Positions 270-22,859 of a stretch of DNA of 22,859 nt are shown one piece after another; the stretch's first letter is position 1, and each line of letters begins with the position of its first letter. A program made the position numbers and the translations under genes. The stretch covers positions 1 through 22,859 of IMG/VR virus record IMGVR_UViG_3300009320_000478; one strand, 5' to 3'. The notes under the pieces were generated by a model that was not told where the DNA came from, did no database searches, and was given only the letters and a program-made list of their open reading frames with translations. This DNA is from a virus.

Positions 270-3200
270 ATGAAAAAATTAAAAGTTTTAGCAAATTCAT
301 CATTTATTGGTGATACCGGCTACAATTCCCACACACGAGAATTCTTTACAGCACTATCCAAATTTTCTGATCTGAAAGTCCGAAATTATACTATTGGGAA
401 AAGTTGGAATGGATATAACAAAACACCACATAATAAAGAAAGTTATATTAAGCAAGAGCATAAAGATATTTTATTTTCTCAGACATTATATGATGATGGT
501 AAAAGGAAAGATTATCCAATCTATTCTCATGATTCAAACTTCAAGCCGGATGTAAATATAGTATTAAATGAAGTAAACCACCACTACTTCTATGATGATT
601 ACGAAGGTCCAAAAATAGCATATAATGTTTGGGAATCAACTAAGTATCCAGATGACTTTATGGATAGGATTTTGGAATACGATCAATTGTGGGTACCAAC
701 CGAATGGCAAAAGCAATGTTCAATCAAACAGGGATATCCATCCGATAGAGTTAAAGTTATACCAGAAGCGGTGGATGCCACCACATTCTTTCCAGAAGAA
801 ATAAAGTATGACGATAATATATTTCGTTTTCTAGTTTTTGGTAGATGGGACTACCGAAAATCAATAAATGAAATAATTGAATCATTCCTAAAAACATTCA
901 ATAAGAACGAAAAAGTAGAGCTGGTATTATCAGTCGATAATCCATTTTCAATTGATGGAATGAAGACAACTGAAGAACGTCTAAAGCATTATGGGTTTAA
1001 TGATAAACGAATTAAAGTTATACATTTCCCTTCCAGAGAAAAGTATATTGAATACTTAAAAAGTGGACATGTATTTGTTTCTTGTGCTAGATCAGAAGGA
1101 TGGAACTTGCCTCTGATTGAAGCGCTGGCATGCGGAACGCCATCAATATATTCAAACTGGGGAGCTCAGCTTGAATTTGCTAAAGGAAAAGGCCATCCCG
1201 TTGAGATTATTGGAGAGCGACCGGCATCTGATGGTTCTGAATTTAGTTATGGTGCTGGAGCCAAATCTGTTGATGGAAAACATGGATATAAAGCAACTGA
1301 TTTAATTCCTGGAAATTATTGCGAGCCAGATTATGACGATCTCAGCAAAACAATGAGATATATTTATGAAAATTACGATAAATGTAAAAAGAAAGCATTG
1401 GATGATTCAAAATTAATTCGTGAACAATTTACATGGGAAAATGCCGCTAAAAAAGCATATAAAATTTTAGAGAATATTGATATACCCGATGGGAACAAAT
1501 ATACATATAACATATATTATAATAAGAATGATCATAAATTATATTTTGAAAATAATAAAGGAGACATAGGACATAGACACGTTTATATTAAAGATGTATC
1601 TAATAATATTACTATGTACCATTTTGATTGGGATTTATCTACAAATATGCGGGCGATTCCATCTAATATAGTGTCTGATTATAATTTATTGAAAAATTTT
1701 AAGGGATTTTTAGTTCAGGTTTTGGATGAGGAAGAAAAAATTATATATGAAACAAATGTAATAGTAAACGATTGTGATAAAATAGATGATTTGAAATTTC
1801 ATCAAAATGATAAAGAAGAGTTGTGGATAAATATTTATGAAATGTTCTATAAAGACATTTATCAAAATATGTTTGAAGGAGATATAAATACTGTTATAGA
1901 TATTGGGGCAAATATTGGGATATTTACAAGATATTGTCTTAAAAAAGGAGTAAAAAAATGTTATTCTATAGAACCATCTATTGCTTATAAATATTTAGAA
2001 AAAAATTTCAAAGGAGATAATAGGATTAAATGCATTGATGCTGCCATAACTGGAAAGTCTGGAGTCGCTAATTTATATATACAGGATAATGGGGAATCAC
2101 TTAGTTCTTTGTTTTTGGATGAAAGCAAAAAAATGAATGAAAAGTATATAACTAAACAAGTAAAGACTTATTCTTTTAATGATTTCGTGACTAAGTACAA
2201 TATTGATAAAATAGATATATTAAAAATCGACGTCGAAGGATCTGAATATGAAATACTAGAACATATGAGTGATGATTATCTGAAAAATAATATATCAAAG
2301 TCAATAATAGAATTTCATTTTAATGACGGCATTAAATTAAAGAGAATTATTGATAAACTAGAACGAAATGGATTTGCAATTCAAATCAAAAACCAAAGCA
2401 CGACTGAAACTGGAAGTATTGATAATACGAATGGTATTCTATTTGCTAGTAAAAATGCAATAACTAAAAAACACTCAGAAAAATTTGAATTTAGATATGA
2501 AGAGAATAAAGATAATATTTTAGTTTATGTTATACCCCATGGAATTGAATATGGAAAAGAATATAATGCATATATAAGAGATGGTATAACTGACTTACTT
2601 ATCTATAGTGATGAATTTAGTTTCAAAGATGGTGTTGAATATTGGATGTCAATTGATAATATGTCTTTGGGCAAAATTCGATTTGTTATATTAGATTCAA
2701 ATAAGAATATTGTTTTTGAAAAGTTTTTTAATACTAAAAGACAAAAGGAATCCATAATCGATCATCATATTTATAGTCAATTTATTGATGAAATTTTTGG
2801 TATATATCGTGGAATAATGCATAATAAAGAATATGAATACGATATATGTCGAGTAGAAAAAGGAGATATTTGTGTGGATATTGGAGCAAATATTGGATTA
2901 TTTAGTATGTATGGTTCTTTGTTAGGAGCTTCTAAAATTTATGCTATTGAACCATGTTCTTTTACTTTTGATCATTTAATAAGAAATAAATCTATCAATG
3001 AAAAGTATGATAATGTTATAATTCCATTTAAGTGTGCTATAACGGCTGATACTGGTAAAAGAGACATGTTTGTATATGGCGTTGGTTCTTGTATGAATTC
3101 TTTAGTTGATGTCGGACTTAAGCTATCTCATGAGAAGGAATCAGTGAATGCTGTTAATATTAATGATTTCGTCTATAGTAATAAAATAGACCATATTAAT

Positions 3201-6200
3201 TTCCTTAAAATCGACGCCGAGGGATCAGAATATGAAATTATAGATACAATTGACTCTGAATTTTTATCTAAACATATTGATAAAATGGTCATAGAATTTC
3301 ATGAAGTTCATAATAATGATTATGAAACGTCTCTAGATAAAATAATAAAATGCGGTTTTGAATACTATGAAAATAAAGATAATGATCCATTTATTATGTT
3401 ATATGCATGGAAACCACATCTTAAAAAAGAAATAAAATCGGCATTTGTAGTAACCTGGTTCGGTGAACTACCATACTGGTTTAGTTATTTCTTGAAGTCT
3501 TGTGAATATAATCCATTATATGATTGGTTGATTTTTTCTGATGCATTGCCACCGAATAATATTCCATCCAATGTTAAATTTATTAAGTTCGATTTACAAG
3601 AATTTAATAAGCTGGCTTCTGATAAATTGAATAGAAATGTGGAAATTACCAATGCATATAAATTATGTGATTTTAAGAGTTTATATGGATTTATTTATGA
3701 AGAATATTTAACTAAATACGACTATTGGGGATTCTGTGATATAGATGTTATATGGGGCGACATTAATAAATTTTTTGGAAATTATTTACGCAAAGGAATT
3801 GATATTATAACTCTCGGAGCAGAAGAAAAAAATGGATTGCATTATAGAATATGTGGTCCGTGTACTTTAGTTAAAAATATAGAAGAATTGAATAAGTTAT
3901 TTTTTAACGTGCCAGAACTTGAAGAGATTTTTTCTTCTAACAATTATATAAATTTTGAAGAATCACATTGGGATAAATATGTTAAAAATAATGATAATAT
4001 TAATTTAGAGATATTATTAAATTTACAGAGTTGGGAAAACGGCGGTCCTATTTTGGACAATGAATGGAATAATGGGAAACTATATTTACCATCTGGTAGA
4101 GAAATAATGATGTCGCATATGATTGAAAAAAATAGGACATTTGAAGATACCGGGTTTCGGTTTTTTGATTCAAACAAACAGGATGATGAATTGGTTTATA
4201 TTACTGGTGGTGATGAAAAATATATGCCACTAATAGATGTTTTAACTAGAAGTTTACTAAAATACTCCAAATATAAAATAATAGTTTATGGTTATAATTG
4301 TGATGTGCCAATTAAATATGAGAATGTAATAAAGAAGAGGATAGATATAAAGGAGGATAATCTTATTGATTATTCAGATAGGCCAGTGGGTTATATGTTT
4401 GCAAAACAACAATGTTGTCTAGACGCGATACAAAATTTTAATTATAAGAATTTCGTATGGATAGACGGAGATAGTTTTGCTAGTAAACATATTGATAATG
4501 TTACCAAATATATATCCCAATTAGATAATTATCCTTTGATTAACTCACATATACACGATTCTATTGTTTCTAATATAACTGGAAGGACAATGCAAGAAGA
4601 TTTAATAGAGTTAGTGGGTGCTGCCAATCGTCAATATCCATGGTTGCACGCGTGTATGATGCTTTTTAATAAAAGTAGCGACTGGTTTTTCAGAGAAGTA
4701 TTGATGGTTGCAGAAAAATTACACGATGATATAAAACTAAGACAAACCATATTTGGAACTGATGAACTATTAATGAATGTTTTATTGTGGAAATATGGGT
4801 TTGATAAAAAAATGGATGTACATGATCTTGATAGTGAAAATGAGGATAATTTTTATAAATTTTCACTCAATGATGTAGAAAAAACCTATAAAAATTTTAC
4901 ACCCCTATTAAGTGATGGATTATCGCCACACGCTATACTTCCAACTAAAGAGGAAGATATACTTGTATATCATGGTCAAAAAGACGCTAAAAAAGCCAAT
5001 GAAATGGTCGATTATTTGGATAAAAAAATTCATTATAGTAGTATGGGTGAATTACAATTAGAACAGCAATCCAATGAAATTGGATTATACTTTAAGTATT
5101 TTGATGTAAATGATGGAGATGTGGTTGTTGATTTAGGAGCATGCTTGGGATTGACAACTTTAGAAATATTAAAAAGAAATCCAAAAAAAGTTTATTGTGT
5201 AGAAGCTTCAGATTTAATATATAAAGATTTGTATAGAAATATTACGAATTTCAGCAATGTGATACCTTGTAAATTATTAATCGGAGAAGAAAAAAATAAA
5301 ATAGGAATTTTTGAGTATAGTGATAAAGATAATGATGTAGAGATTTTATCTTTTTATGAGTTTGTAAAACAAAATAATATTGATAAAATAGACTTTCTAA
5401 AAATGGATATTGAAGGAGCTGAATTTGAAATTTTTAATGATAAAAATAGCAGAGATTGGATTGGGAACAATGTAAAAAATATAGTGGGAGAAAATCATAT
5501 AGATCATAAGAAAGAAGAGTTTTTTGATCTAATTAATAAAATTAAAGATTTAGGATTTGATTTAATTCTTAATAGTATAGATGGAATAGATATTACACAA
5601 CAAGTGATCAATAATCAATTTTTGAGTGATGTAAATGAATACGCAATAGATTATTATAGACATGTTCTTTTCTATGCATTTAAAGATAGATTTTGTTGGG
5701 TTACGGCCGGCGATGAAAAATATATGGGAATGATAGACGTCTTGGCCAAAAGTTTATTGAAATACTCTAAACATAAGTTAATAGTTTATGGATTTAACTG
5801 TGATCCGAATATTGATTTACCCAACGTCATAAATAGACGAATTGATTTTCCTGTAAAAACATCTAATTTTATCAAAAATGCCCCGAAATCAGATTTAAGA
5901 GATAAAGAACATTTAATATATTTTGCAAAGTATTTAGCCAGTTTAGAATCATTAAATGAAAATTATGATACTTTTGCAATGATAGACGGAGATGTTTTCG
6001 TAACGGAGAATATAGATAAATGTGTTAAATATTCAAATGATCTACTAGATTATCCATTATTCATGCGATATTATTATGGCGATCTTGTTTTCTGGCGAAT
6101 CATTGATGGTGTAAAAATGGAGTGTGGTTATGGATCTGAATTATCCAAAATTAAAAATATAAATAGAAATCCAAATAATAGAATTGTAGCAGGTGGTTTT

Positions 6201-8849
6201 TATTTCTATAATAAAAAAAGTGAGAATTTTTTTAATTCGTGCTTAGATTGGAATAAAGAATTAGATAAAATTAGTTTTACGGATTATATAGATGATAATG
6301 CATTCGCAGATGAGCGGGTTGTGAATAATATATTATGGAAAGATAATTTAGATAAATATTTACCAGTAACGTGGAATCACCACAACGGATCAGCAGGCGA
6401 TATACAAGTAAGTAATAAATATACAAAATATCTTAAAAGAGGGTTTGATGTCATGTTTGATGAAAACACCAAAGACGTATATTTTATACACGGACCAGAT
6501 CCATCTGTAGCTAGTAAAAATGCGAAAATATTAATGGAAAATTATGAAGATTATTATAATAATAATATGTTAATGATTGTCGCTCATCCAGATGACGAAA
6601 TAATTTTTGGAGGAGCCGAATTAATACAAAATGCGTCTAATTATCAAGTTATTTGTGTTACTTGTGGAGAACATGATAGTAGTAAACACGATTTTGAAAA
6701 AGTTATGAATGAACTAGGAGTTTGTTCATATGAAATATGGGATTATAAAGCGGAATTTGAATTATTTGAAAACAAATTAGTGGATGATATTAGTAAAATA
6801 ATCAATTCTAAAAAATGGGATAAAATAGTAACTCATAATCCAATTGGTGAATATGGTCATATACAACATAAACAAATATTTGATATAGTCAAAGAATTAA
6901 CTGATGATTTTTATATTTTCACTAAAACTCCAGAAATATTAAGTTCCGATGTATTAGATAAAAAGAAAAATATTTTAGATTTATATGAATCTGAACAGCC
7001 AATTATTCATCAACTAAGAGTTAAAAACGGGGATTGGTATATTAGTCCGGATAGCTCTACCAACTATATTGAGTATGGCACCATTGAAAAATACGATTCT
7101 AGTAAAGATATAACATCATTTATTAGTTGTATGGATAAATCACATAATTATCAGGAGACTTATAATATTAGTAGAGCATATGATATTGGAATGATACAAT
7201 CAAATGGTGAAATAACTAGTTTAGTCGAATTTCTAAAGGATAAAAATATAAAGAATTTCTTAGAAATAGGCACCGATCAGGGCGGTACATTTTATCTATT
7301 TACAAAAATAACATCTGGTAAAAAAATATCATTGGATCTTCCTCGGAATTCATTTGAAACAGAATCTATTCTAGAGGCAAGAAACAATTTAATGCGTAGT
7401 TGGTCTGATAATGTGCATATAATTTCTGGTGATTCACATAAAATGGAATCGTTAAATCAAGTAAAAAAGATTTTAGATGGCGAATTATTAGATTTATTAT
7501 TTATAGACGGCGATCATACATATAATGGAGTATATCAAGATTATATAATGTACTCTAGTTTGGTTCAAGACGATGGATATATAGTGTTCCATGACACCAA
7601 CGACTCAGAAGAATATACACAGTCAGGTTATTCTGTTAGTATTTTATGGAATCAGCTAGACGGAAATAAAATAGAGTTTAACGAGAATAATAGTTGGGGT
7701 GGAATTGGATTAATAACCAAAAATAGTTCTAACACAATAAATAATAAAATTGATACAACTGGAGAGGAATTAACAATAAATGTAAACTTTGTTCAAGGGG
7801 CAATGGCTGAGTTATTGTCGAATAAATCATCTGAATATTATATTGAATTTATCGATTCAGACAAAGGACAAACGATACACCAAGAATATATTAAAAATAA
7901 CACATGGATTAAACCTGATAGAAAATGGTATACAAACTGGTTAATACGGATCATTAATCGATCTTCAAATAAAATAATACACGAACATAAGTTTGATTTA
8001 ACAAATAAAAGAGCATATATTGCACTAGAGAGTAAGTCGTTAGGTGACACACTGGCGTGGATGCCATACGTAGAAGAATTTCGTAAAAAACATAATTGCG
8101 AAACAATTTGTTCAACATTTTGGAATCACTTCTTCAAATCAGAATATAAAGATATAACATTTGTCAAACCAGGAACAACTGTTCATAATCTATATGCTAT
8201 GTATAGTGTCGGTATATTCTCAGAAGACGGTATGAATCCAATCGATATAAAAAAAACACCATTACAAAAAGTAGCAACAGATATACTGGGTCTTGATTAT
8301 GAAGAGATCAAACCAAAAATTCACAAAAAACCAAAATTACGAAAAATAAAAGAACCATATATTTGTATTGCGCCGTATGCGACAGCGCAATGTAAATTTT
8401 GGAATAATCAAAATGGATGGCAGGAATTAGTTGATCATCTAAACAAAAAAGGATATAAGGTCGTACTAATATCACGTGAGGAATCTGGATATATGGGTAA
8501 TGATCATCCAACTGGGATAATAGATAAGTCTGGTGATAAGTATGATATTTATGATCGTATAAATGATTTAGAACACGCCGATGCTTTTATTGGAGTTGGA
8601 TCTGGACTATCTTGGCTTGCTTGGGCAGTGGGAACTCCGGTTATTATGATATCAGGATTCTCACCCCCGTGGTATGAATTCAAATGCGAACGAATAATTA
8701 ACATGGATGTATGTAATAGTTGTTGGCCAGAAAATAAACTAGACGCAGGTAACTGGAATTGGTGTCCAAAACAAAAAAACTTTGAATGCACAAGATCAAT
8801 AACATCGGCTGAAGTTATAAAATCATTGAACAGAATTTTGAAAAATTGA
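270..8849 (+). CDS. Giant multi-domain glycosyltransferase / FkbM methyltransferase / PIG-L deacetylase / heptosyltransferase-like polyenzyme (2,859 aa)
   Basis: Single uninterrupted frame; the modules below are read from motifs. 1-405: GT-B glycosyltransferase of GT4 type with an E-x7-E pair (E276, E284) in SEGWNLPLIEALACGTP. 520-755, 845-1055 and 1600-1800: FkbM-type SAM methyltransferases with DIGANIG or DLGACLG loops (D544, D870, D1621) and K-I/M-D-x-E-G acids (D654, D982, D1713). 1057-1307: glycosyltransferase-like module with DIDVIWGD (D1157, D1159), like DUF6625 proteins. 1308-1587 and 1808-2095: duplicated GT-A-like modules with IDGD (D1399/D1401, D1906/D1908). 2100-2270: PIG-L/LmbE deacetylase with AHPDDE (H2106, D2108, D2109) and GHIQH (H2197, H2200). 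2330-2450: SAM-binding fold with EIGTDQGG and IDGDHTY. 2500-2859: domain like autotransporter O-heptosyltransferases, with SLGDTLAW and cysteines 2815, 2818, 2832, 2840. Beta-rich linkers lie near 410-515 and 760-835. Substrate unknown; fibre or host-glycan modification is inferred from the neighbours. Confidence 0.88.
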   Translation: MKKLKVLANSSFIGDTGYNSHTREFFTALSKFSDLKVRNYTIGKSWNGYNKTPHNKESYIKQEHKDILFSQTLYDDGKRKDYPIYSHDSNFKPDVNIVLNEVNHHYFYDDYEGPKIAYNVWESTKYPDDFMDRILEYDQLWVPTEWQKQCSIKQGYPSDRVKVIPEAVDATTFFPEEIKYDDNIFRFLVFGRWDYRKSINEIIESFLKTFNKNEKVELVLSVDNPFSIDGMKTTEERLKHYGFNDKRIKVIHFPSREKYIEYLKSGHVFVSCARSEGWNLPLIEALACGTPSIYSNWGAQLEFAKGKGHPVEIIGERPASDGSEFSYGAGAKSVDGKHGYKATDLIPGNYCEPDYDDLSKTMRYIYENYDKCKKKALDDSKLIREQFTWENAAKKAYKILENIDIPDGNKYTYNIYYNKNDHKLYFENNKGDIGHRHVYIKDVSNNITMYHFDWDLSTNMRAIPSNIVSDYNLLKNFKGFLVQVLDEEEKIIYETNVIVNDCDKIDDLKFHQNDKEELWINIYEMFYKDIYQNMFEGDINTVIDIGANIGIFTRYCLKKGVKKCYSIEPSIAYKYLEKNFKGDNRIKCIDAAITGKSGVANLYIQDNGESLSSLFLDESKKMNEKYITKQVKTYSFNDFVTKYNIDKIDILKIDVEGSEYEILEHMSDDYLKNNISKSIIEFHFNDGIKLKRIIDKLERNGFAIQIKNQSTTETGSIDNTNGILFASKNAITKKHSEKFEFRYEENKDNILVYVIPHGIEYGKEYNAYIRDGITDLLIYSDEFSFKDGVEYWMSIDNMSLGKIRFVILDSNKNIVFEKFFNTKRQKESIIDHHIYSQFIDEIFGIYRGIMHNKEYEYDICRVEKGDICVDIGANIGLFSMYGSLLGASKIYAIEPCSFTFDHLIRNKSINEKYDNVIIPFKCAITADTGKRDMFVYGVGSCMNSLVDVGLKLSHEKESVNAVNINDFVYSNKIDHINFLKIDAEGSEYEIIDTIDSEFLSKHIDKMVIEFHEVHNNDYETSLDKIIKCGFEYYENKDNDPFIMLYAWKPHLKKEIKSAFVVTWFGELPYWFSYFLKSCEYNPLYDWLIFSDALPPNNIPSNVKFIKFDLQEFNKLASDKLNRNVEITNAYKLCDFKSLYGFIYEEYLTKYDYWGFCDIDVIWGDINKFFGNYLRKGIDIITLGAEEKNGLHYRICGPCTLVKNIEELNKLFFNVPELEEIFSSNNYINFEESHWDKYVKNNDNINLEILLNLQSWENGGPILDNEWNNGKLYLPSGREIMMSHMIEKNRTFEDTGFRFFDSNKQDDELVYITGGDEKYMPLIDVLTRSLLKYSKYKIIVYGYNCDVPIKYENVIKKRIDIKEDNLIDYSDRPVGYMFAKQQCCLDAIQNFNYKNFVWIDGDSFASKHIDNVTKYISQLDNYPLINSHIHDSIVSNITGRTMQEDLIELVGAANRQYPWLHACMMLFNKSSDWFFREVLMVAEKLHDDIKLRQTIFGTDELLMNVLLWKYGFDKKMDVHDLDSENEDNFYKFSLNDVEKTYKNFTPLLSDGLSPHAILPTKEEDILVYHGQKDAKKANEMVDYLDKKIHYSSMGELQLEQQSNEIGLYFKYFDVNDGDVVVDLGACLGLTTLEILKRNPKKVYCVEASDLIYKDLYRNITNFSNVIPCKLLIGEEKNKIGIFEYSDKDNDVEILSFYEFVKQNNIDKIDFLKMDIEGAEFEIFNDKNSRDWIGNNVKNIVGENHIDHKKEEFFDLINKIKDLGFDLILNSIDGIDITQQVINNQFLSDVNEYAIDYYRHVLFYAFKDRFCWVTAGDEKYMGMIDVLAKSLLKYSKHKLIVYGFNCDPNIDLPNVINRRIDFPVKTSNFIKNAPKSDLRDKEHLIYFAKYLASLESLNENYDTFAMIDGDVFVTENIDKCVKYSNDLLDYPLFMRYYYGDLVFWRIIDGVKMECGYGSELSKIKNINRNPNNRIVAGGFYFYNKKSENFFNSCLDWNKELDKISFTDYIDDNAFADERVVNNILWKDNLDKYLPVTWNHHNGSAGDIQVSNKYTKYLKRGFDVMFDENTKDVYFIHGPDPSVASKNAKILMENYEDYYNNNMLMIVAHPDDEIIFGGAELIQNASNYQVICVTCGEHDSSKHDFEKVMNELGVCSYEIWDYKAEFELFENKLVDDISKIINSKKWDKIVTHNPIGEYGHIQHKQIFDIVKELTDDFYIFTKTPEILSSDVLDKKKNILDLYESEQPIIHQLRVKNGDWYISPDSSTNYIEYGTIEKYDSSKDITSFISCMDKSHNYQETYNISRAYDIGMIQSNGEITSLVEFLKDKNIKNFLEIGTDQGGTFYLFTKITSGKKISLDLPRNSFETESILEARNNLMRSWSDNVHIISGDSHKMESLNQVKKILDGELLDLLFIDGDHTYNGVYQDYIMYSSLVQDDGYIVFHDTNDSEEYTQSGYSVSILWNQLDGNKIEFNENNSWGGIGLITKNSSNTINNKIDTTGEELTINVNFVQGAMAELLSNKSSEYYIEFIDSDKGQTIHQEYIKNNTWIKPDRKWYTNWLIRIINRSSNKIIHEHKFDLTNKRAYIALESKSLGDTLAWMPYVEEFRKKHNCETICSTFWNHFFKSEYKDITFVKPGTTVHNLYAMYSVGIFSEDGMNPIDIKKTPLQKVATDILGLDYEEIKPKIHKKPKLRKIKEPYICIAPYATAQCKFWNNQNGWQELVDHLNKKGYKVVLISREESGYMGNDHPTGIIDKSGDKYDIYDRINDLEHADAFIGVGSGLSWLAWAVGTPVIMISGFSPPWYEFKCERIINMDVCNSCWPENKLDAGNWNWCPKQKNFECTRSITSAEVIKSLNRILKN
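4197..4304 (+). repeat. GT-A-like module, copy 1 of an internal protein repeat
   Basis: Encodes residues 1310-1345 of the giant enzyme, beginning YITGGDEKYM and ending YGYNCD. It matches residues 1810-1845 at 26 of 36 positions when aligned by eye without gaps. Downstream of both copies, at similar spacing, lies an IDGD motif typical of metal-binding GT-A glycosyltransferases. This indicates internal duplication of a glycosyltransferase module of about 280 residues. Confidence 0.8.
5697..5804 (+). repeat. GT-A-like module, copy 2 of an internal protein repeat
   Basis: Encodes residues 1810-1845, beginning WVTAGDEKYM and ending YGFNCD. It is the partner of the repeat at 4197-4304 and is separated from it by the third FkbM-type methyltransferase module. 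The match is at protein level; the codons have diverged, so the duplication does not look very recent. Confidence 0.8.
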
Positions 8850-14510: not shown

Positions 14511-15125
14511 ATGGACACAACTCAACAAAAAATAGCAAAACAGGGAATCACACTAAAAGATATAATCAAATCAGAAATAAAGAAGTGCAGAAAAGATCCC
14601 GCATACTTTATGAATAAATACTGTTATATCCAGCATCCAGAACGTGGAAAGATACCATTCAAACTATTCGACTATCAACGTGATGTAGTGATAGCTGATA
14701 TGGAGAAATATAAGCATAACATTATTCTGAAATCACGCCAGCTAGGAATATCAACTGTCGTAGCAGGATATTGTTTATGGATGGTATTGTTTCAAAAAGA
14801 TAAAACGATTAGAATAATTGCGACGAGTCAAGAGACATCCAAAAACATGATCACCAAAATAAGCTATATGTACTATAGCTTACCACGGTGGTTGAGATCA
14901 TTATCTGATGCGACGGAAGACAATAAAATGTCAATGTCATTTAGCAACGGATCGTCAGTGAGAGCGTTGTCGAGTACGCCAACTTCTGGGAGATCAGAGT
15001 CGCTTTCCGCGCTAATTTTTGATGAGTGCTGCGGAAAAAATACAAAAATAACACTACGAAATAAAGTAACTGGTGAAATAGTAGAAGAGGAAATTGGGAA
15101 TTTAATAAATGATAATTATGAATAA
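14511..15125 (+). CDS. terL: Large terminase, N-terminal ATPase part, fused to a short N-intein (TerL-N/IntN)
   Basis: 204 residues. 1-172 are the start of a T4 gp17-like terminase ATPase, the motor that pumps DNA into the head. A deviant Walker A, KSRQLGIST (74-82), has its Lys ahead of the loop. Walker B is LSALIFDE, ending D171-E172. From C173 the sequence changes to an intein N-terminus (CCGKNTKITLRNKVTGE) and stops at residue 204 with tandem TAA TAG. Removing the intein joins FDE to CAFAEY in the downstream ORF and restores the IDECAF-type Walker B region known from T4 terminases. The polypeptide alone lacks the rest of the ATPase and the nuclease, so activity depends on ligation to the product of 15212-16645, or on correction of the sequence. 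Confidence 0.85.
   Translation: MDTTQQKIAKQGITLKDIIKSEIKKCRKDPAYFMNKYCYIQHPERGKIPFKLFDYQRDVVIADMEKYKHNIILKSRQLGISTVVAGYCLWMVLFQKDKTIRIIATSQETSKNMITKISYMYYSLPRWLRSLSDATEDNKMSMSFSNGSSVRALSSTPTSGRSESLSALIFDECCGKNTKITLRNKVTGEIVEEEIGNLINDNYE
15027..15122 (+). other. Intein N-fragment (32 aa) of an atypically split TerL intein
   Basis: Begins with Cys1 of block A immediately after the Walker B Glu. The pattern CCGKNTKITLRNKVTGE then EEIGNLI fits intein block A (Cys, then T-x-I/V, a turn with G, and an E-I-x-x-L segment). Choosing the first rather than the second Cys as residue 1 gives the canonical spliced terminase FDE-CAF. It is far shorter than a standard N-intein of about 100 residues and lacks block B, which is found in the C-part instead. 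Confidence 0.78.
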
Positions 15126-15211: not shown

Positions 15212-15535
15212 ATGGACAAAGTAATAAAAAACATATCGGAATGGGAAGTATTAACTCCAGATGGATTTAAGGACTTTAATGGCATCCAAAAAATAATAAA
15301 AGATGAGCATTATGTTCTAGATATAAGCGGCGATGAATTTATTTGTTCTGGAAATCACAAAATCAAAACAAAAGATGGATTCAAGTATGCAAAAGACTTA
15401 AAACAGAATGAGGAATTACTCGAAGGACAAATCATAAATAGTATAACAAAGGTAGATGAAGAAATTGACTTATATGATTTACTAAATGTGGGCGAAGAAC
15501 AAGAATATTACACTAATGGAATAATAAGTCACAAT
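15212..15535 (+). other. Intein C-fragment (108 aa) of an atypically split TerL intein
   Basis: Starts with Met, then EWEVLTPDGFKDFNGIQK, an intein beta-strand segment that normally follows block A. Block B is FICSGNHKIKTKDG (S-x-x-H in place of the usual T-x-x-H). Blocks F/G are LYDLLNVG and YYTNGIISHN, with the terminal His-Asn followed by Cys+1. From memory the AceL-TerL C-intein has the same architecture: a Met start before ILSPNGF, SINH in block B, and YITNGVVSHN at the end. The complete catalytic set (Cys1 in the N-part, block B His, terminal His-Asn, Cys+1) is present, so it may be active in trans. Confidence 0.82.
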
Positions 15536-16645
15536 TGTGCGTTCGCAGAATATGCTGAGGAGATCTGGACATCAGCTCAGCAAGCAGCAATGGCGGGCAA
15601 GATAATAATTGTTAGTACTCCGAACGGTTTTGGAAACTTTTTCCATAAGATGTGGTCTGACGCTGAAGCCGGATTAAATGATTTTAATACAATCAAACTT
15701 AAGTGGGACGTACATCCAGAACACGATCAAGCATGGCGAGATGAGCAAACTGTACTATTGGGCGAACGGCTGGCTGCGCAGGAATGCAACGTGTCATTTA
15801 TTACTTCCGGCCATACTGTAATTGATGGTGAAATATTACAATGGTACAAAGACAATACAGAAGAACCAATCGAAAAACGTGGATTTGATGGAAACATATG
15901 GATCTGGGAACGTCCGGATTATCATAAAACTTATGTCGTTTGTGCTGATGTTGCCAGAGGAGATGGCGAAGATTATTCTACATTTCATGTTTTGGATATC
16001 GAGGATGTCAGGCAAGTAGCAGAATATAAAGGAAAATTACCTCCAGCAGAATTCGGAAATATGTTAATCAGCATAGCAACTGAATATAATGATGCTCTAC
16101 TAATCATTGATAATACAGGATTAGGTTGGGCAGCAATACAACCAGCAATTGATCGTAGTTATCCATATCTATTCTATATGTCAAAGAATTTTGCGTATAT
16201 GGATCTTCAAGTTCAACTACAAAAAGGGCTGGACTTAAAGCAGAAGGAGGATATGGTACCTGGATTTACAATATCAACCAAAACAAGACCGGTGATCATC
16301 TCAAAACTAGAAACATACTTTAGAGAAAGAACTCCAACCGTACGAAGTACTAGATTAGTAGATGAACTATTTACATTCATATGGAACAATGGAAAAGCAG
16401 AAGCAAGAACTGGATATAACGATGATCTAACTATGGCGTTCTCGATTGGATTGTGGGTACGAGATACAGCACTACAGCTTAACCAGAAGGGATTGGAATT
16501 AACAAAAACATCAATGGAATATATGGGCAAATTAAATGAACCACAGATATACAGTTCATCACCATACAGTGATGCGGGAAAGAAAGCGTGGAATATGAAT
16601 GTTGGTAAAAATCAAGTGGAGGATTTGAGTTGGTTAGTTCGCTAG
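15212..16645 (+). CDS. terL: C-intein fused to large terminase C-terminal ATPase/nuclease part (IntC/TerL-C)
   Basis: 477 residues. 1-108 are the intein C-part. From C109 the sequence is terminase: CAFAEYAEEIW completes Walker B, and IIIVSTPNG is the coupling motif. The RNase H-like nuclease follows, with acids at D246 (CADVARGDGEDYS), D300 (LIIDNTG) and D404/D405 (YNDDLTMAF), the positions expected of the T4 gp17 metal-binding triad. Joined to the first ORF after splicing the protein is 541 residues, close to the T4 gp17 size class. It lies in a different frame from TerL-N, so simple readthrough of the first stops could not make the full protein. Its ATG has only a weak ribosome-binding site, and re-initiation from the upstream ORF is plausible. 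Confidence 0.87.
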   Translation: MDKVIKNISEWEVLTPDGFKDFNGIQKIIKDEHYVLDISGDEFICSGNHKIKTKDGFKYAKDLKQNEELLEGQIINSITKVDEEIDLYDLLNVGEEQEYYTNGIISHNCAFAEYAEEIWTSAQQAAMAGKIIIVSTPNGFGNFFHKMWSDAEAGLNDFNTIKLKWDVHPEHDQAWRDEQTVLLGERLAAQECNVSFITSGHTVIDGEILQWYKDNTEEPIEKRGFDGNIWIWERPDYHKTYVVCADVARGDGEDYSTFHVLDIEDVRQVAEYKGKLPPAEFGNMLISIATEYNDALLIIDNTGLGWAAIQPAIDRSYPYLFYMSKNFAYMDLQVQLQKGLDLKQKEDMVPGFTISTKTRPVIISKLETYFRERTPTVRSTRLVDELFTFIWNNGKAEARTGYNDDLTMAFSIGLWVRDTALQLNQKGLELTKTSMEYMGKLNEPQIYSSSPYSDAGKKAWNMNVGKNQVEDLSWLVR

Positions 16646-16702: not shown

Positions 16703-17293
16703 ATGTCGCTCGCACATAATCCAAAAGTTGTCGTGGACGGGCTGGTGGGATATTGGGACGCAGCGAATACAAAATCATATCCTGGAAGTGGGACTGTTTG
16801 GAGTGATCTAGTTGGTACAAATCATGGAACACTTGTAAGTGAATCAATAGGAACGACCAATCCAGGTTATATGACATTTGATTCATGTAGTTATGATTAT
16901 ATAACATTAAGTAGTCAGGCTTTTGATTCAACAGGGTCTAGTTTTTCTGTTTGGATAAATTCAACTGGAGAATATTCTGCTAATTATAGTGGACGTGGAG
17001 TAATTTTATCAAGAGATGCAGCTACTTCTAATGGATTTTGGTTAAAAAATACGAGCGTGGGATCAAATTATAAAGTAGAGGGAGAAACAAATACTAATGA
17101 GAATTATTTTGCTGATACTCCATATGACTATACTAGAGATCAATGGTTGCACGTTCACATAAATTTTTCAGAATCAACTGGATCATCATATGTAAATGGG
17201 GAATTTATTGAAAATAATGCTTTGTTAGGTGATTTGACTACTCAACATAAAATTGGCGGAAATGCAGATGATGTTAATCTCGATAGACGATAA
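16703..17293 (+). CDS. LamG/concanavalin-A-like virion or adhesin protein, interrupted by an in-frame stop
   Basis: 196 residues from an ATG with a strong AAGGAG site. The sequence DGLVGYWDAANTKSYPGSGT, then WSDL and a NHGTL segment, a beta-sandwich-rich middle (SFSVWINSTG) and WLHVHINFSES are typical of LamG/ConA-like carbohydrate-binding sandwiches found in phage fibres and decoration proteins. The frame ends at TAA 17291-17293 but the same frame continues for 34 codons with the expected last strand (DGKIPIVMFYNRALTQSEI) to the true-looking stop at 17396-17398. As written the product lacks its final strand. A recent nonsense mutation or a consensus error is likely; suppression is less likely because TAA is the common stop here. 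Placed between TerL and portal, it is probably a late virion gene. Confidence 0.75.
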   Translation: MSLAHNPKVVVDGLVGYWDAANTKSYPGSGTVWSDLVGTNHGTLVSESIGTTNPGYMTFDSCSYDYITLSSQAFDSTGSSFSVWINSTGEYSANYSGRGVILSRDAATSNGFWLKNTSVGSNYKVEGETNTNENYFADTPYDYTRDQWLHVHINFSESTGSSYVNGEFIENNALLGDLTTQHKIGGNADDVNLDRR

Positions 17294-17504: not shown

Positions 17505-20500
17505 ATGGCAAAAAACAAATGGTATAGCGGGTTACAACGTCTCTTCAGCACTGGCGTCGTAGTACGTCGTATTGGTAAAGGCAAAATTAAAGTAGTAGAT
17601 ACTTCTAACCTCCAAGGAGCAGGCGGACCAAAAGGCAGTAAAGTTATTGATCGCTATGGAAGAATCTATAATAGTAGACATACATCTTACTCTTATGGAA
17701 GACCAGGTGGACGTTATCCAGATACACTAAATAATCGATTAGAGCTTTATACTGACTATGAAGCAATGTCGACTGATTCTATATTAAGTTCAGCATTAGA
17801 TATTTTCTCGGATGAATGCTTGCAAAAAGATACAATAATCCCATTGCTTGATGGAAGAAAAATTACCATAAAAGAACTATTCGAAGAAAAAGATTTTTGG
17901 TTATATGGATTAGACGATGATGGTAATTTCAAACCAATCAAAGCAGATAAAGTTTCATTCAATGGCATCAAAAAGATATATAAAATCACTCTTGAAGACG
18001 GCACTGAATTAAAAGCAACTGGAAATCATATATGGCTAGATACAAATCGTATAGAAAAAAGAACAGACGAATTAATGGTAGGTGATGGTATATATACTCT
18101 AGCAACTAAATTAAGTACTCACGGAAATATCCCAGGATATTTAATGATCAAAGACAATAAAGGTTGGGATTTTGTTCATAGATTAGTAGCAAGAAAGCAT
18201 AAACCACTTATCGAACAAAAAACAAAAGATACTGCTTATATCCACCATAGTAGCTTCGATAAATTAAACAATAACCCAGATGAATTATGTTGGATGTCTA
18301 GAAAAGATCATTTTGTTGCTCATTCTGAATTTAATAAAGAAATATGGAGCGATGAAACGATAACCCATATTTACAAAGATAAAACAAGAGCCGGTCATAA
18401 AAAATACTGGACAGCTGAAAAAAGAGCTGAAATGGGAATTCGTGTATCTAAGTTTATTAAACAATATATGCTATCATTAACTCAAGGTAAACGGAATGAA
18501 ATATTTGGCAGACCAGGCAAACAAAATGGAATGTTTGGAAATGGTTATAAATTAGAAAAAGAAAAAAACGGTAGGTGGTTATATGATATAGATAGGTTAG
18601 AAAATATTGATATCCAAGAATATATAAGTATTGCTATGACTGGGTACCGTCCAGATAAAAGTGTATTTAATGAAGTTAATAAATTTTATAATCTAAACTC
18701 ATCTGAATTTCATAGAATAAATAGGCATATATGTGATTTATATGGTGTGAAGAATCTAAAGAAGTTTGCAGTAAAGTATAATAATGGAGAATTAGAATCA
18801 GTAAATATATCAAATCATAAAATAGTAAAAATAGAAGAATCTGGATTAGATGAAGTATATGATATTGTAAATGCAGGCGATAATCATGTTTTTGCTATAG
18901 AAACAAAGGATGGTGGAAAATTATATACACATAATTGCTCAACTCGTGATCTTGAGACTGGCGATATTCTAAATATCAAAAGCAAGAATGAGGACACTCG
19001 TCGCATTCTTGAAAACTTGTTCTATGATATACTAAGTATTGAACATAACTTGTGGTGGTGGATCCGTAACATGACGAAATATGGGGATTTCTACCTTCAA
19101 CTGAATCTAAATCCAGAACTTGGAGTAGTAAACGCACAACCACTATCTTCTTATGACGTGGTGCGTGAGGAGATGTATGATGATGAAACAAATCAATACA
19201 AAGTTAAATTTTTCTATGAAGGAGATCAAGGAAAAGGAGAATTGCAATATTTTGAAGTAGCGCATTTTAGAATGCTGACGGATAGCAATTTCTTGCCATA
19301 TGGAAAGAGCATGATGGAGGGAGCAAGAAAAGTGTGGAAATCACTAACACTTATGGAAGATGCTTTACTTATCAATCGTATTATGCGCGCACCTGAACGC
19401 CGAATCATAAAAGTAGACATAGGAAATATAAAACCAGATGAAGTAGACGGTTATATGGAAAAAGTCATGAACAAGATGAAGAAAGTTCCGTATATTGACG
19501 AGTCGACTGGGGAAATAAATATGAAATTTAATCTTATGAGCATGATGGAGGATGTTTTTCTAGCTGTTCGTGGTGATAAAAGCGGAACCACAGTTGACAC
19601 ATTACCAGGTCTAGAGTGGAATACGACAGAAGATTTAGAATACCTAAGGTCACGGATGATAGCCGCACTCAAAATCCCAAAAGCATTTCTAGGATACGAA
19701 GAAGGAGTAGAAGGAAAGTGTTTAGCACCAAATACCGAAATATCATTATTGAATGGTGAAATTCTTACTATTAAAGAAATAGCAGACAAGTTTACAGAAA
19801 ATAATGAAACTGATTTATGGTGTTATTCTTTCGACTTCAAAACAAATTCAATCATCCCAGCAAAAATCAAATTAGCAGAAAAAACTAGAAGAGATACACA
19901 AGTAGTTAGAGTGCATATAGACAATGATACATATGTTGATTGCACACCAGATCACCATTTCATATTAAAAGGCGGAACAGAAATTGAAGTTCAAGATTTA
20001 GTCGTAGGAGATAATCTTCAAACTAAAGAATTAGACCATAAAGTAGTTCGTATTGAATGGTTGACTGAGAAAATAGATACATATAACATGGAAGTTGATA
20101 ACGAGAATCATAATTATTTATTGAATAATGGAATCTTTATAAAAAATTCAACATTATCTGTCCTCGATATCCGCTTCAGTCGTACTATCGAAATGATCCA
20201 ACGCATCGTTGTTTCCGAACTAACTAAAATCGCGATTATCCACTTATTCTTGCAGGGATATAAAGATTCCGACCTCGTAGAATTCGAGTTAGAACTAACA
20301 AACCCTTCAATCATATACGAACAAGAAAAAGTATCATTATTATCTGAAAAATACCAGTTGGTCTCATCAATGCAAGGAACTGGAATAACATCTCAAGATA
20401 AAATATATAAAGACTTATTTGATATGTCCGAAGATGAAATCAAACAAGAAAAGAAAAAAATTATTGAAGATAAAAAATGGCAATTCCGTCTAGCTCAAAT

Positions 20501-20909
20501 CGAAGCAGAAGGTAATGATCCAGCAATCAGCGGCGAATCATTCGGTACACCACACGATCTAGCAGCAATGAGTGCAGAAGATGCTGAAGAGCCAGAAAAA
20601 CCAGATGTAAAAAATGATCCAGATGATAAAAATGAACCAGGACAAGGTAGACCAAAAGAGCCAACTCACTATGGAGCTCAGGAACATCCAGACGGTCGTG
20701 ATCCAGTTGGTAAGAAAGATATTAAAAAATCATTGGAACCAGACCCAAGTCCACTCAAACATACTTTTAGAAACGGTCCGCTATCATTGAAAAACTCAAT
20801 CAAACCAGAGAAAAAGAAGATGATATCAGAACTATATGAAGACTCTATAGAAAAAGAGGAAGATGATAAATTTTTAGATGAAAATAATATCAAAGATAAT
20901 GATATATAG
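17505..20909 (+). CDS. T4 gp20-like portal protein with two inteins (1,134 aa precursor, about 618 aa after splicing)
   Basis: Portal proteins form the dodecameric ring at the head vertex through which DNA enters; T4 gp20 has 524 residues. Exteins: 1-104 (MAKNKWYSGLQRLF up to SSALDIFSDE), 478-738 (CSTRDLETG; MLTDSNFLPYGKSMMEGARK; RAPERRIIKVDIGN; PKAFLGYEEGVEGK) and 882-1134 (STLSVLDIRFSRTIEMIQRI). These are T4-type portal segments. Both junctions read as continuous portal once the inteins are removed: FSDE-CSTRD and EGK-STLSV. The final 120 residues are an acidic, Pro-rich extension (PEKPDVKNDPDDKNEPG and a charged helix) beyond the gp20 core. The start codon is chosen because the N-terminus matches the family; it lacks a nearby Shine-Dalgarno sequence. 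Confidence 0.9.
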   Translation: MAKNKWYSGLQRLFSTGVVVRRIGKGKIKVVDTSNLQGAGGPKGSKVIDRYGRIYNSRHTSYSYGRPGGRYPDTLNNRLELYTDYEAMSTDSILSSALDIFSDECLQKDTIIPLLDGRKITIKELFEEKDFWLYGLDDDGNFKPIKADKVSFNGIKKIYKITLEDGTELKATGNHIWLDTNRIEKRTDELMVGDGIYTLATKLSTHGNIPGYLMIKDNKGWDFVHRLVARKHKPLIEQKTKDTAYIHHSSFDKLNNNPDELCWMSRKDHFVAHSEFNKEIWSDETITHIYKDKTRAGHKKYWTAEKRAEMGIRVSKFIKQYMLSLTQGKRNEIFGRPGKQNGMFGNGYKLEKEKNGRWLYDIDRLENIDIQEYISIAMTGYRPDKSVFNEVNKFYNLNSSEFHRINRHICDLYGVKNLKKFAVKYNNGELESVNISNHKIVKIEESGLDEVYDIVNAGDNHVFAIETKDGGKLYTHNCSTRDLETGDILNIKSKNEDTRRILENLFYDILSIEHNLWWWIRNMTKYGDFYLQLNLNPELGVVNAQPLSSYDVVREEMYDDETNQYKVKFFYEGDQGKGELQYFEVAHFRMLTDSNFLPYGKSMMEGARKVWKSLTLMEDALLINRIMRAPERRIIKVDIGNIKPDEVDGYMEKVMNKMKKVPYIDESTGEINMKFNLMSMMEDVFLAVRGDKSGTTVDTLPGLEWNTTEDLEYLRSRMIAALKIPKAFLGYEEGVEGKCLAPNTEISLLNGEILTIKEIADKFTENNETDLWCYSFDFKTNSIIPAKIKLAEKTRRDTQVVRVHIDNDTYVDCTPDHHFILKGGTEIEVQDLVVGDNLQTKELDHKVVRIEWLTEKIDTYNMEVDNENHNYLLNNGIFIKNSTLSVLDIRFSRTIEMIQRIVVSELTKIAIIHLFLQGYKDSDLVEFELELTNPSIIYEQEKVSLLSEKYQLVSSMQGTGITSQDKIYKDLFDMSEDEIKQEKKKIIEDKKWQFRLAQIEAEGNDPAISGESFGTPHDLAAMSAEDAEEPEKPDVKNDPDDKNEPGQGRPKEPTHYGAQEHPDGRDPVGKKDIKKSLEPDPSPLKHTFRNGPLSLKNSIKPEKKKMISELYEDSIEKEEDDKFLDENNIKDNDI
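17817..18935 (+). other. Portal intein 1 (373 aa) with HNH homing-endonuclease domain
   Basis: Residues 105-477 of the precursor. Block A is CLQKDTIIPLLDGRKITIKE, and block B is KATGNH (T172 to H175). The C-terminal blocks are EVYDIVNAGDNHVFAI and LYTHN, then Cys+1. Inserted between the splicing blocks is an HNH endonuclease: the H247-H248 pair, N256/N257, and H269 and H273 in the WMSRKDHFVAH segment, followed by DNA-binding-like helices. All residues needed for splicing and for a working HNH site are visible, so this may be an active mobile intein. Confidence 0.85.
19719..20147 (+). other. Portal intein 2 (143-aa mini-intein, no endonuclease)
   Basis: Residues 739-881. Block A is CLAPNTEISLLNGEILTIKE, block B is DCTPDHHF (T814, H817), and blocks F/G are IDTYNMEVDNENHNYLLNNG and IFIKN, then Ser+1 at residue 882. 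The length leaves no room for an endonuclease, so it is not self-mobile. The residue before the terminal Asn is Lys rather than the usual His. Some active inteins tolerate this, but it can slow Asn cyclisation. It interrupts the conserved portal segment GVEGK-STL. Confidence 0.85.
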
Positions 20910-22515: not shown

Positions 22516-22859
22516 ATGAGTTTATTAAAAGGAACAAACCCCAATAAATTAACAGGAAATACAACACTTGGAAATGCGATTACTGATACTCACCAAGTAA
22601 CTGGTAGTTTGAATGTATCTGGAAGTACCATATTCAACACCAACCAGCTTGTCCTTGCTACTGACGGCAATGTCGGCATAGGGACTGTGAGTCCTGCAAC
22701 TACTTTAGATGTAGCTGGAGTAATCACAACTGAAGCAATTACAATGGATGGAATGAGTCTATCGTTATGTCAAGGAGTAACATGGGATTCTGATGGTGAT
22801 ACTTACACAAGATTAGGTTCGCTGAAAGGAATAGCAACTGCTCAAAGCGCTGGAAATGC
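22516..22859 (+). CDS. Tail-fibre/spike-like protein, N-terminal part (3' end outside window)
   Basis: Starts at ATG 22516 with AAGGAA (22502-22507) 8 bases ahead and is open to the window edge (114 complete codons). It contains GSLNVSGSTIFNTNQLVLAT followed by DGNVGIGTVSPATTLDVAG. The element NVGIGTxSPxxxLDVxG is common in phage fibres and in proteins that end with an intramolecular chaperone (endosialidase-chaperone type). It is therefore likely a trimeric beta-structured fibre. The C-terminal chaperone domain, if present, lies beyond the window. Confidence 0.75.
   Translation, partial: MSLLKGTNPNKLTGNTTLGNAITDTHQVTGSLNVSGSTIFNTNQLVLATDGNVGIGTVSPATTLDVAGVITTEAITMDGMSLSLCQGVTWDSDGDTYTRLGSLKGIATAQSAGN

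Follow-up and report, generated by a model that had tools for sequence, protein, structure and literature searches.

A ten-module phage polyenzyme with a TibC-type terminal domain as a candidate assembly line for fibre O-glycosylation

The window analysed here is a 22,859-base IMG/VR virus record, a fragment of metagenomic origin. The phage is tailed, with a T4-type portal and a terminase, and the closest annotated relative that we found is the Microcystis phage Mel-JY01, while a DNA-level search of a phage collection with the window returned nothing similar. Positions 270 to 8849 of the plus strand form one open frame, which begins with ATG at 270, ends with a stop codon at 8849 and encodes 2,859 amino acids with 0 internal stops. 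Along this chain, the enzymes are ordered GT4, FkbM, FkbM, DUF6625, GT-A, FkbM, GT-A, PIG-L, Methyltransf_24 and GT9. The kind and number of the ten modules listed in the initial annotation were right, as judged by the open frame, by Pfam, NCBIfam and PHROGs, and by structure models.

270 to 1481, plus strand, residues 1 to 404: module 1, GT4 glycosyltransferase (Pfam Glycos_transf_1, PHROG glycosyltransferase phrog_2170)
1482 to 1829, plus strand, residues 405 to 520: unassigned stretch, read as a beta-rich linker (no Pfam family, no module-survey match; beta-rich as predicted from sequence)
1830 to 2474, plus strand, residues 521 to 735: module 2, FkbM methyltransferase 1 (Methyltransf_21 and TIGR01444)
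2475 to 2819, plus strand, residues 736 to 850: unassigned inter-module stretch (no family)
2820 to 3431, plus strand, residues 851 to 1054: module 3, FkbM methyltransferase 2 (Pfam, module survey)
3432 to 4259, plus strand, residues 1055 to 1330: module 4, DUF6625, putative glycosyltransferase with a DID motif (Pfam DUF6625, 165 bits)
4260 to 5069, plus strand, residues 1331 to 1600: module 5, GT-A glycosyltransferase 1 (D345/D347 of alignment A7 invariant; GT-A fold in the model)
5070 to 5684, plus strand, residues 1601 to 1805: module 6, FkbM methyltransferase 3 (Pfam, module survey)
5685 to 6554, plus strand, residues 1806 to 2095: module 7, GT-A glycosyltransferase 2 (at most 59% identity to viral loci; model with a glycogenin/LgtC/GT6 fold)
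6555 to 7151, plus strand, residues 2096 to 2294: module 8, PIG-L/LmbE-type deacetylase (PF02585; deacetylase fold in the model)
7152 to 7721, plus strand, residues 2295 to 2484: module 9, Methyltransf_24/CmcI-like O-methyltransferase (PF13578 and PF04989)
7722 to 7964, plus strand, residues 2485 to 2565: predicted N-terminal beta-barrel of the TibC-like module (TIGR04414 from residue 2500; aligned to the TibC N-terminal domain)
7965 to 8849, plus strand, residues 2566 to 2859 and stop: module 10, GT9 catalytic domain of the TibC/AAH type with iron-finger cysteines (TIGR04414, PDB 4rap/4rb4, catalytic residues)

Matches above the curated Pfam cut-offs were obtained for GT4 (44.6 bits), DUF6625 (165 bits), PIG-L (41.2 bits), Methyltransf_24 (47.9 bits) and GT9 (44.4 bits), and FkbM reached 145.5 bits across three stretches, likewise above its cut-off, which places these in PF05050/TIGR01444. 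Membership of module 8 in the PIG-L/LmbE family follows from PF02585 (cut-off 28.2), the AHPDDE and HIQH (HxxH) motifs and the fold. Catalytic motifs, described earlier as intact in most modules, were read directly in GT4 (EGWNLPLIE), both GT-A modules (D-G-D), DUF6625 (DID), PIG-L, FkbM (SAM and acidic motifs) and GT9. The GT4 module shares 45% identity with the N-terminus of the Mel-JY01 protein and 52–57% with the best 80 of the confirmed viral loci; for the Methyltransf_24 module, identities of 45–47% were found to L027, L056, L152 and L153.

The two GT-A-like stretches (residues 1331–1600 and 1806–2095) gave no Pfam family and no PDB sequence match of note. The two share about 29% identity, their D-G-D motif is invariant in alignments A4 and A9, and a predicted GT-A fold with a DxD-type motif assigns both to the GT8/GT6-like GT-A class. 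Structure prediction domain by domain, proposed at the outset as a check, yielded a GT-A fold in both and a deacetylase fold in the PIG-L part. The model of residues 1806–2294, covering GT-A 2 and PIG-L, had a mean pLDDT of 86.8; its first half resembled glycogenin, LgtC and the GT6 blood-group enzymes at Z of about 15, with GlyE as the best Foldseek match, and its second half grouped with LmbE-type deacetylases in Foldseek and VIA, although the PIG-L part is less tested in VIA because GT-A matches fill most of that list. The model of residues 1055–1600 was mediocre overall and good only in its GT-A 1 half; a structure of DUF6625 was dropped, as the model of that part was poor. One two-domain alignment that included Methyltransf_24 rows seemed to be misaligned and was left out of the folding. 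At the DNA level, patches of 75–78% identity connect paralogous modules (window 4201–4304 with 5701–5804, and 2160–2254 with 5337–5431), and such patchiness despite a GT-A protein identity of about 29% could reflect internal recombination.

For the C-terminal module, the earlier call "heptosyltransferase-like" holds with regard to the GT9 domain but under-reads the rest. Residues 2500–2856 match TIGR04414, the autotransporter O-heptosyltransferase equivalog, at 308.8 bits against a curated cut-off of 200, and the profile match to the TibC crystal structures (PDB 4rap and 4rb4) has an E value of 3e-79, with the N-terminal stretch aligning to TibC from residue 27. The TibC study describes Asp110 as the base, Arg286, Trp305, Thr226 and Lys230 as holding ADP-heptose, and a four-cysteine iron-finger besides an N-terminal beta-barrel; it also has members of the TIGR04414-type family tested as protein O-heptosyltransferases (PMC4358343). 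The window carries the equivalents D2593 (Asp110), T2705 (Thr226), K2709 (Lys230), R2763 (Arg286) and W2782 (Trp305), the cysteines C2815, C2818, C2832 and C2840, for which metal binding is predicted, and a glycine where TibC has Pro300. By alignment, it shares with TibC and AAH a GT9 domain behind a putative beta-barrel, the catalytic aspartate, the donor-binding residues and all four iron-finger cysteines. It differs in that nine other modules precede it on the same chain, in being encoded by a phage and in the lack of autotransporter acceptor repeats. The TibC/AAH family has ADP-heptose as donor and a dodecameric ring as assembly, features that the window module may or may not share.

Across 155 non-redundant relatives, the catalytic Asp, Trp305 and Thr/Ser226 are each kept in 155, Lys230 in 154 and each iron-finger cysteine in 149. 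The adenine-reading arginine (TibC Arg286) is kept in only 25 of the 155, though the window has it, and valine or threonine takes its position in 97, so that the nucleotide donor may vary within the GT9/TibC-like family. The TIGR04414 match, the TibC residues and the iron-finger cysteines together point to sugar transfer onto a protein. The module is TibC-type by sequence and by the chemistry predicted from it, but we do not call it an autotransporter heptosyltransferase, because none of 48 records, among them the window fragment, contained the TIGR04415 acceptor repeats. With regard to the donor, gmhA was present in 0 of the 48 records and rfaE domain II above the cut-off in 0, with rfaE-like matches below the cut-off in 13; the donor would therefore come from the host, or would not be a heptose. 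A supply of ADP-heptose by the phages themselves was rejected on these counts, and the nucleotidyltransferase-like neighbour of the polyenzyme gene shows only a weak resemblance to NMN adenylyltransferases.

This neighbour, on the right, is a 770-aa ORF whose N-terminus is weakly nucleotidyltransferase-like. On the left lies a 71-aa fragment without a match, and a fibre-like fragment occurs at window position 22516, 13.7 kb from the gene; the earlier placement of the gene between fibre genes was not confirmed. Identities between the window and Mel-JY01 are 45–55% for the portal pieces, 48–49% for the terminase and 41–46% for the nucleotidyltransferase-like ORF. At the syntenic place, Mel-JY01 has one 1,226-aa gene (WWT39291.1, annotated as "methyltransferase FkbM") with the same neighbours, which starts with GT4 and ends with a TibC-like GT9, these ends being 45% and 43% identical to those of the window, but which has another middle and lacks most of the middle modules. 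In six further syntenic contigs (L219, L221, L223, L226, L228 and L229), the downstream genes match those of the window (the nucleotidyltransferase-like ORF, TerL at 51–54%, the best portal piece at 55–56%), and the place of the polyenzyme is taken by an ORF of 552–746 aa followed by a 386-aa TibC-like ORF, in overlapping open frames. Pfam scans of L219, L221 and L229 placed GT4 in the first ORF of all three, and in every one of the six contigs except L219 this ORF has a Methyltransf_24 domain. From these overlapping GT4(-Methyltransf_24) and TibC-like genes, the window gene is best read as a fusion of a small operon with inserted modules. Upstream, four of the six contigs have a frame of 1,579–1,901 aa, which abounds in Ser, Thr and Gly in L219 and L229, the two that were read; as PHROGs matched only the C-terminus of the L221 frame, weakly, to a minor head protein and gave nothing for L219 and L229, these frames are putative fibres.

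The long frame could in principle be an assembly chimera of separate genes, as the record is metagenomic and the full module order was found in no relative surveyed; a mis-join had also been named at the outset as the result that would overturn the proposal. However, the frame is open across every junction, the junctions of GT-A 2 with PIG-L and of DUF6625 with GT-A 1 recur in other contigs, both ends match one Mel-JY01 gene, and the flanks are syntenic. With the syntenic relatives countering it, the frame is probably no mis-join, and we regard a chimera as highly improbable.

In the protein scan, the whole 2,859-aa query gave one weak locus only, and two- and three-row alignments of both ends were therefore used as queries. 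These viral scans returned at least 516 and at least 339 confirmed IMG/VR loci, of which the best 80 each were retained for study; with further scans, the module survey comprised 325 sequences including the window. Its figures are frame counts and not independent phages, because contigs recur between scans. GT4 and GT9 are joined in 147 frames, window included: GT4-GT9 in 104, GT4-GT9-GTA-PIGL in 37, GT4-GT9-MT24 in 2, GT4-FkbM-GT9 in 2, GT4-GT9-GTA in 1 and the window layout in 1. Other frames hold GT9 alone (97), GTA-PIGL alone (24), GT4-GTA-FkbM (19) and DUF6625-GTA (3). The earlier suggestion to look for the same domain order in other phages thus gave a divided answer, since the full ten-module order is unique to the window among the 325 sequences, the next longest GT4-GT9 frame having 1,322 aa, while the modules are shared in other orders.

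The DUF6625-GTA order is also found in L104, L105 and L129, a stand-alone GTA-PIGL gene directly follows the GT4-GT9 gene in L137, L149, L151 and L154, stand-alone FkbM genes related to FkbM 3 come after GT4-GT9 genes in other loci, and L152 and L153 have a stand-alone MT24 gene. As judged from these matches, the fused modules of the window occur elsewhere as neighbouring genes. The IMG/VR GT4-GT9 fusions of contractile-tail phages (59 of 90 GT4+GT9 loci are followed by a tail sheath gene no more than eight ORFs away) share the GT4/GT9 core, and many have an extra GTA, PIG-L, FkbM or MT24 module; they differ from the window in module order and length. Two ideas of the initial annotation are well supported by these data: an assembly line (Pfam, TIGR04414, models and module survey), and the exchange of modules between phages, which is seen in their stand-alone or re-ordered occurrence. 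A related arrangement was observed in L410, an uncultured Bacteroidetes MAG in which GT4-GTA-FkbM is followed at some distance by a TibC-like ORF of 924 aa; the phage contigs L028 and L320 hold this pair as well, and L410 may be a prophage or a mis-binned phage.

The prevalence of plain GT4-GT9 among the frames joining both ends (104 of 147) would also fit a chain that is processed or partly decayed, in which only the two ends, GT4 and TibC, are still of use and the modules between them are carried along. The G+C content of the middle, 27.4% against 33.4% and 32.4% at the two ends, goes in the same direction, but this contrast is weak, being reached by 104 of 2,859 circular shifts, and we rejected it as proof of recent insertion. 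As the middle of about 6.2 kb is open in one frame with its motifs intact, and middle modules are kept beside the GT4/TibC core in other phages, we consider passenger modules improbable.

Considering possible acceptors, the collagen family PF01391 was present in 39 of the 48 records fetched by GT4/GT9 versus 7 of 43 TIGR04414-negative controls (Fisher p 3e-10), and in records of at least 30 kb in 38 of 44 versus 4 of 21 (Fisher p 2e-7); among control records with TIGR04414 it was found in 3 of 7. A local count of collagen repeats gave 61 of 122 versus 8 of 68 (p 6e-8). These p values are too small because records share ancestry, and the association could stem from common descent or from a general tendency of such phages towards complex tail fibres. 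The repeats read GTSGSSGTSG, that is, glycine with Ser and Thr in place of proline, and 39 of the 90 GT4+GT9 loci contain an ORF from a cluster that includes, as its longest sequence, a collagen-like fibre of 2,866 aa. No collagen-like repeat was found in the 22.9-kb window fragment or in the four non-redundant sister-lineage loci counted (at least 12 kb, with a TibC-like gene). Direct adjacency of collagen ORFs to the enzyme in phages was rejected, as these ORFs cover 3% of bases at 0–1 kb versus 20% at 5–10 kb (48 loci, 7 kb both sides).

Of eight TibC-like genes in bacterial contigs, three lie immediately downstream of a gene that encodes a short collagen-like protein with GTSG repeats and a start resembling a signal peptide (L405:6932-9149, L408:6933-9095 and L411:6844-9095; Methylobacter and two Methylococcaceae, with a stand-alone TibC-like gene). 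A fourth bacterial-labelled locus, L407 from a Rickettsiaceae MAG, has a GTA-TibC fusion with a GTSG-repeat fibre gene about 1.1 kb downstream; its contig probably comes from a phage and was binned with a bacterial MAG. The remaining four of the eight bacterial TibC-like loci have no adjacent GTSG-repeat gene. A further arrangement, in L143:5467-7854 and its cluster (14 loci in all), is a 795-aa protein with GT4, a GT25-like transferase and a 2OG-Fe(II) oxygenase-like domain, a combination reminiscent of how animal and mimivirus collagen is hydroxylated and glycosylated.

The usual explanation of phage glycosyltransferases is that they modify DNA or the host surface. Actinophage enzymes are read as DNA or cell-wall modifiers (PMC10202952), and host-recognition-region glycosyltransferases of pelagimyophages as modifiers of host LPS (PMC7029224). 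The polyenzyme might accordingly alter LPS, capsule or exopolysaccharide during infection, for instance to block superinfection; polysaccharide clusters, too, often contain FkbM, PIG-L, GT4 and Methyltransf_24, and the virion acceptor protein is a candidate only. Against such a role, the family of the terminal module comprises tested protein O-heptosyltransferases (PMC4358343), the gene lies among late structural genes in the window and its relatives, bacterial relatives adjoin secreted-looking GTSG-repeat proteins, and the families found in the polyenzyme include no transmembrane or lipid-carrier family. A host-surface target is thus rather unlikely in our view. The two targets proposed by the initial annotation fared differently: the virion fibre gained support from the TibC-family end, the late structural context and the collagen-like association, and nothing specific was found for the host surface or superinfection exclusion. 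Hypermodification of phage DNA bases, a known use of phage glycosyltransferases (mentioned also in PMC12619734), is very hard to reconcile with the TibC-type terminal module, the position in the structural region and a window in which no base-synthesis gene was recognised.

We therefore favour, as likely though by no means assured, that the polyenzyme is a fused assembly line for O-glycosylation of the virion fibres of a T4-like, Mel-JY01-related phage. In the mechanism that we infer, including the O-linkage to a phage protein, the order of reactions, the donor sugars, the set of active modules and the benefit, the C-terminal TibC/AAH-type domain would serve as the anchor and place the first sugar onto Ser/Thr of a phage structural protein. 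Elongation of the glycan would fall to GT4, DUF6625 and both GT-A modules, the three FkbM modules and the Methyltransf_24 module would O-methylate it, and PIG-L would take off N-acetyl groups. The likeliest acceptors would be repetitive Ser/Thr-rich tail-fibre proteins, collagen-like (Gly-Ser/Thr-Ser/Thr) in most relatives. The polyenzyme may have grown by fusion, insertion and shuffling of modules that elsewhere are neighbouring genes around a GT4 and TibC core, and the phage might gain fibre stability, protection or receptor mimicry. A bolder and more doubtful extension is that, in phages and in bacteria such as Methylobacter, collagen-like Gly-Ser/Thr-Ser/Thr repeats replaced autotransporter beta-helices as the acceptor of a TibC-type subfamily, with the whole pathway of a methylated, partly deacetylated O-glycan on one chain.

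A partial parallel is offered by the serine-rich-repeat glycosylation of Streptococcus, in which successive transferases act on Ser-rich repeats and from which GlyE tops the Foldseek list of GT-A 2. Unlike the window, that system has separate genes and a different first transferase. Virion glycosylation of mycobacteriophages was reportedly described by Freeman et al. in 2023, a study that PMC12619734 cites. In the accessible part of PMC12619734, which mentions virion glycosylation of phages, phage enzymes likewise glycosylate virion proteins, but the targets are capsid and tail tube and no TibC-type polyenzyme is mentioned. No paper tying TibC-type enzymes to phages or collagen-like fibres was found in the open literature searched. 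TibC-family chemistry and phage virion glycosylation are already known, and the ten-module chain is a new form of such systems.

Judging from sequence, a protein O-glycosyltransferase appears to be the core of a widespread phage family, with hundreds of IMG/VR loci and modules mixed like those of polyketide synthases. Collagen-like fibres are a testable acceptor class, for which the Mel-JY01 gene and the simple bacterial enzyme-substrate pairs provide handles. Should the terminal module assemble into rings as TibC does, a multi-megadalton particle with ten enzymes in twelve copies would act on a threaded fibre, and if the collagen-fibre reading is true, glycans could stabilise proline-poor triple helices. 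Fibre glycans would then add a new level at which phages vary, and the polyenzyme could serve as a compact means of O-glycan synthesis.

Further features were observed downstream in the window.

14511 to 15125 and 15212 to 16645, plus strand: terminase large subunit over two ORFs, apparently with an atypically split intein
16703 to 17293, plus strand: LamG/concanavalin-like ORF (PF13385) between terminase and portal, with no counterpart in the Mel-JY01 locus
17505 to 20909, plus strand: portal ORF with two inteins relative to Mel-JY01

The inteins in the portal measure about 375 aa, with an HNH domain, and about 140 aa, without one. For the terminase, the extein halves match Mel-JY01 TerL, and the apparent intein consists of an N-part of about 31 aa starting with CGKNTK and a C-part of about 108 aa ending with HN before a cysteine, for which AceL-TerL is a parallel as an atypically split TerL intein.
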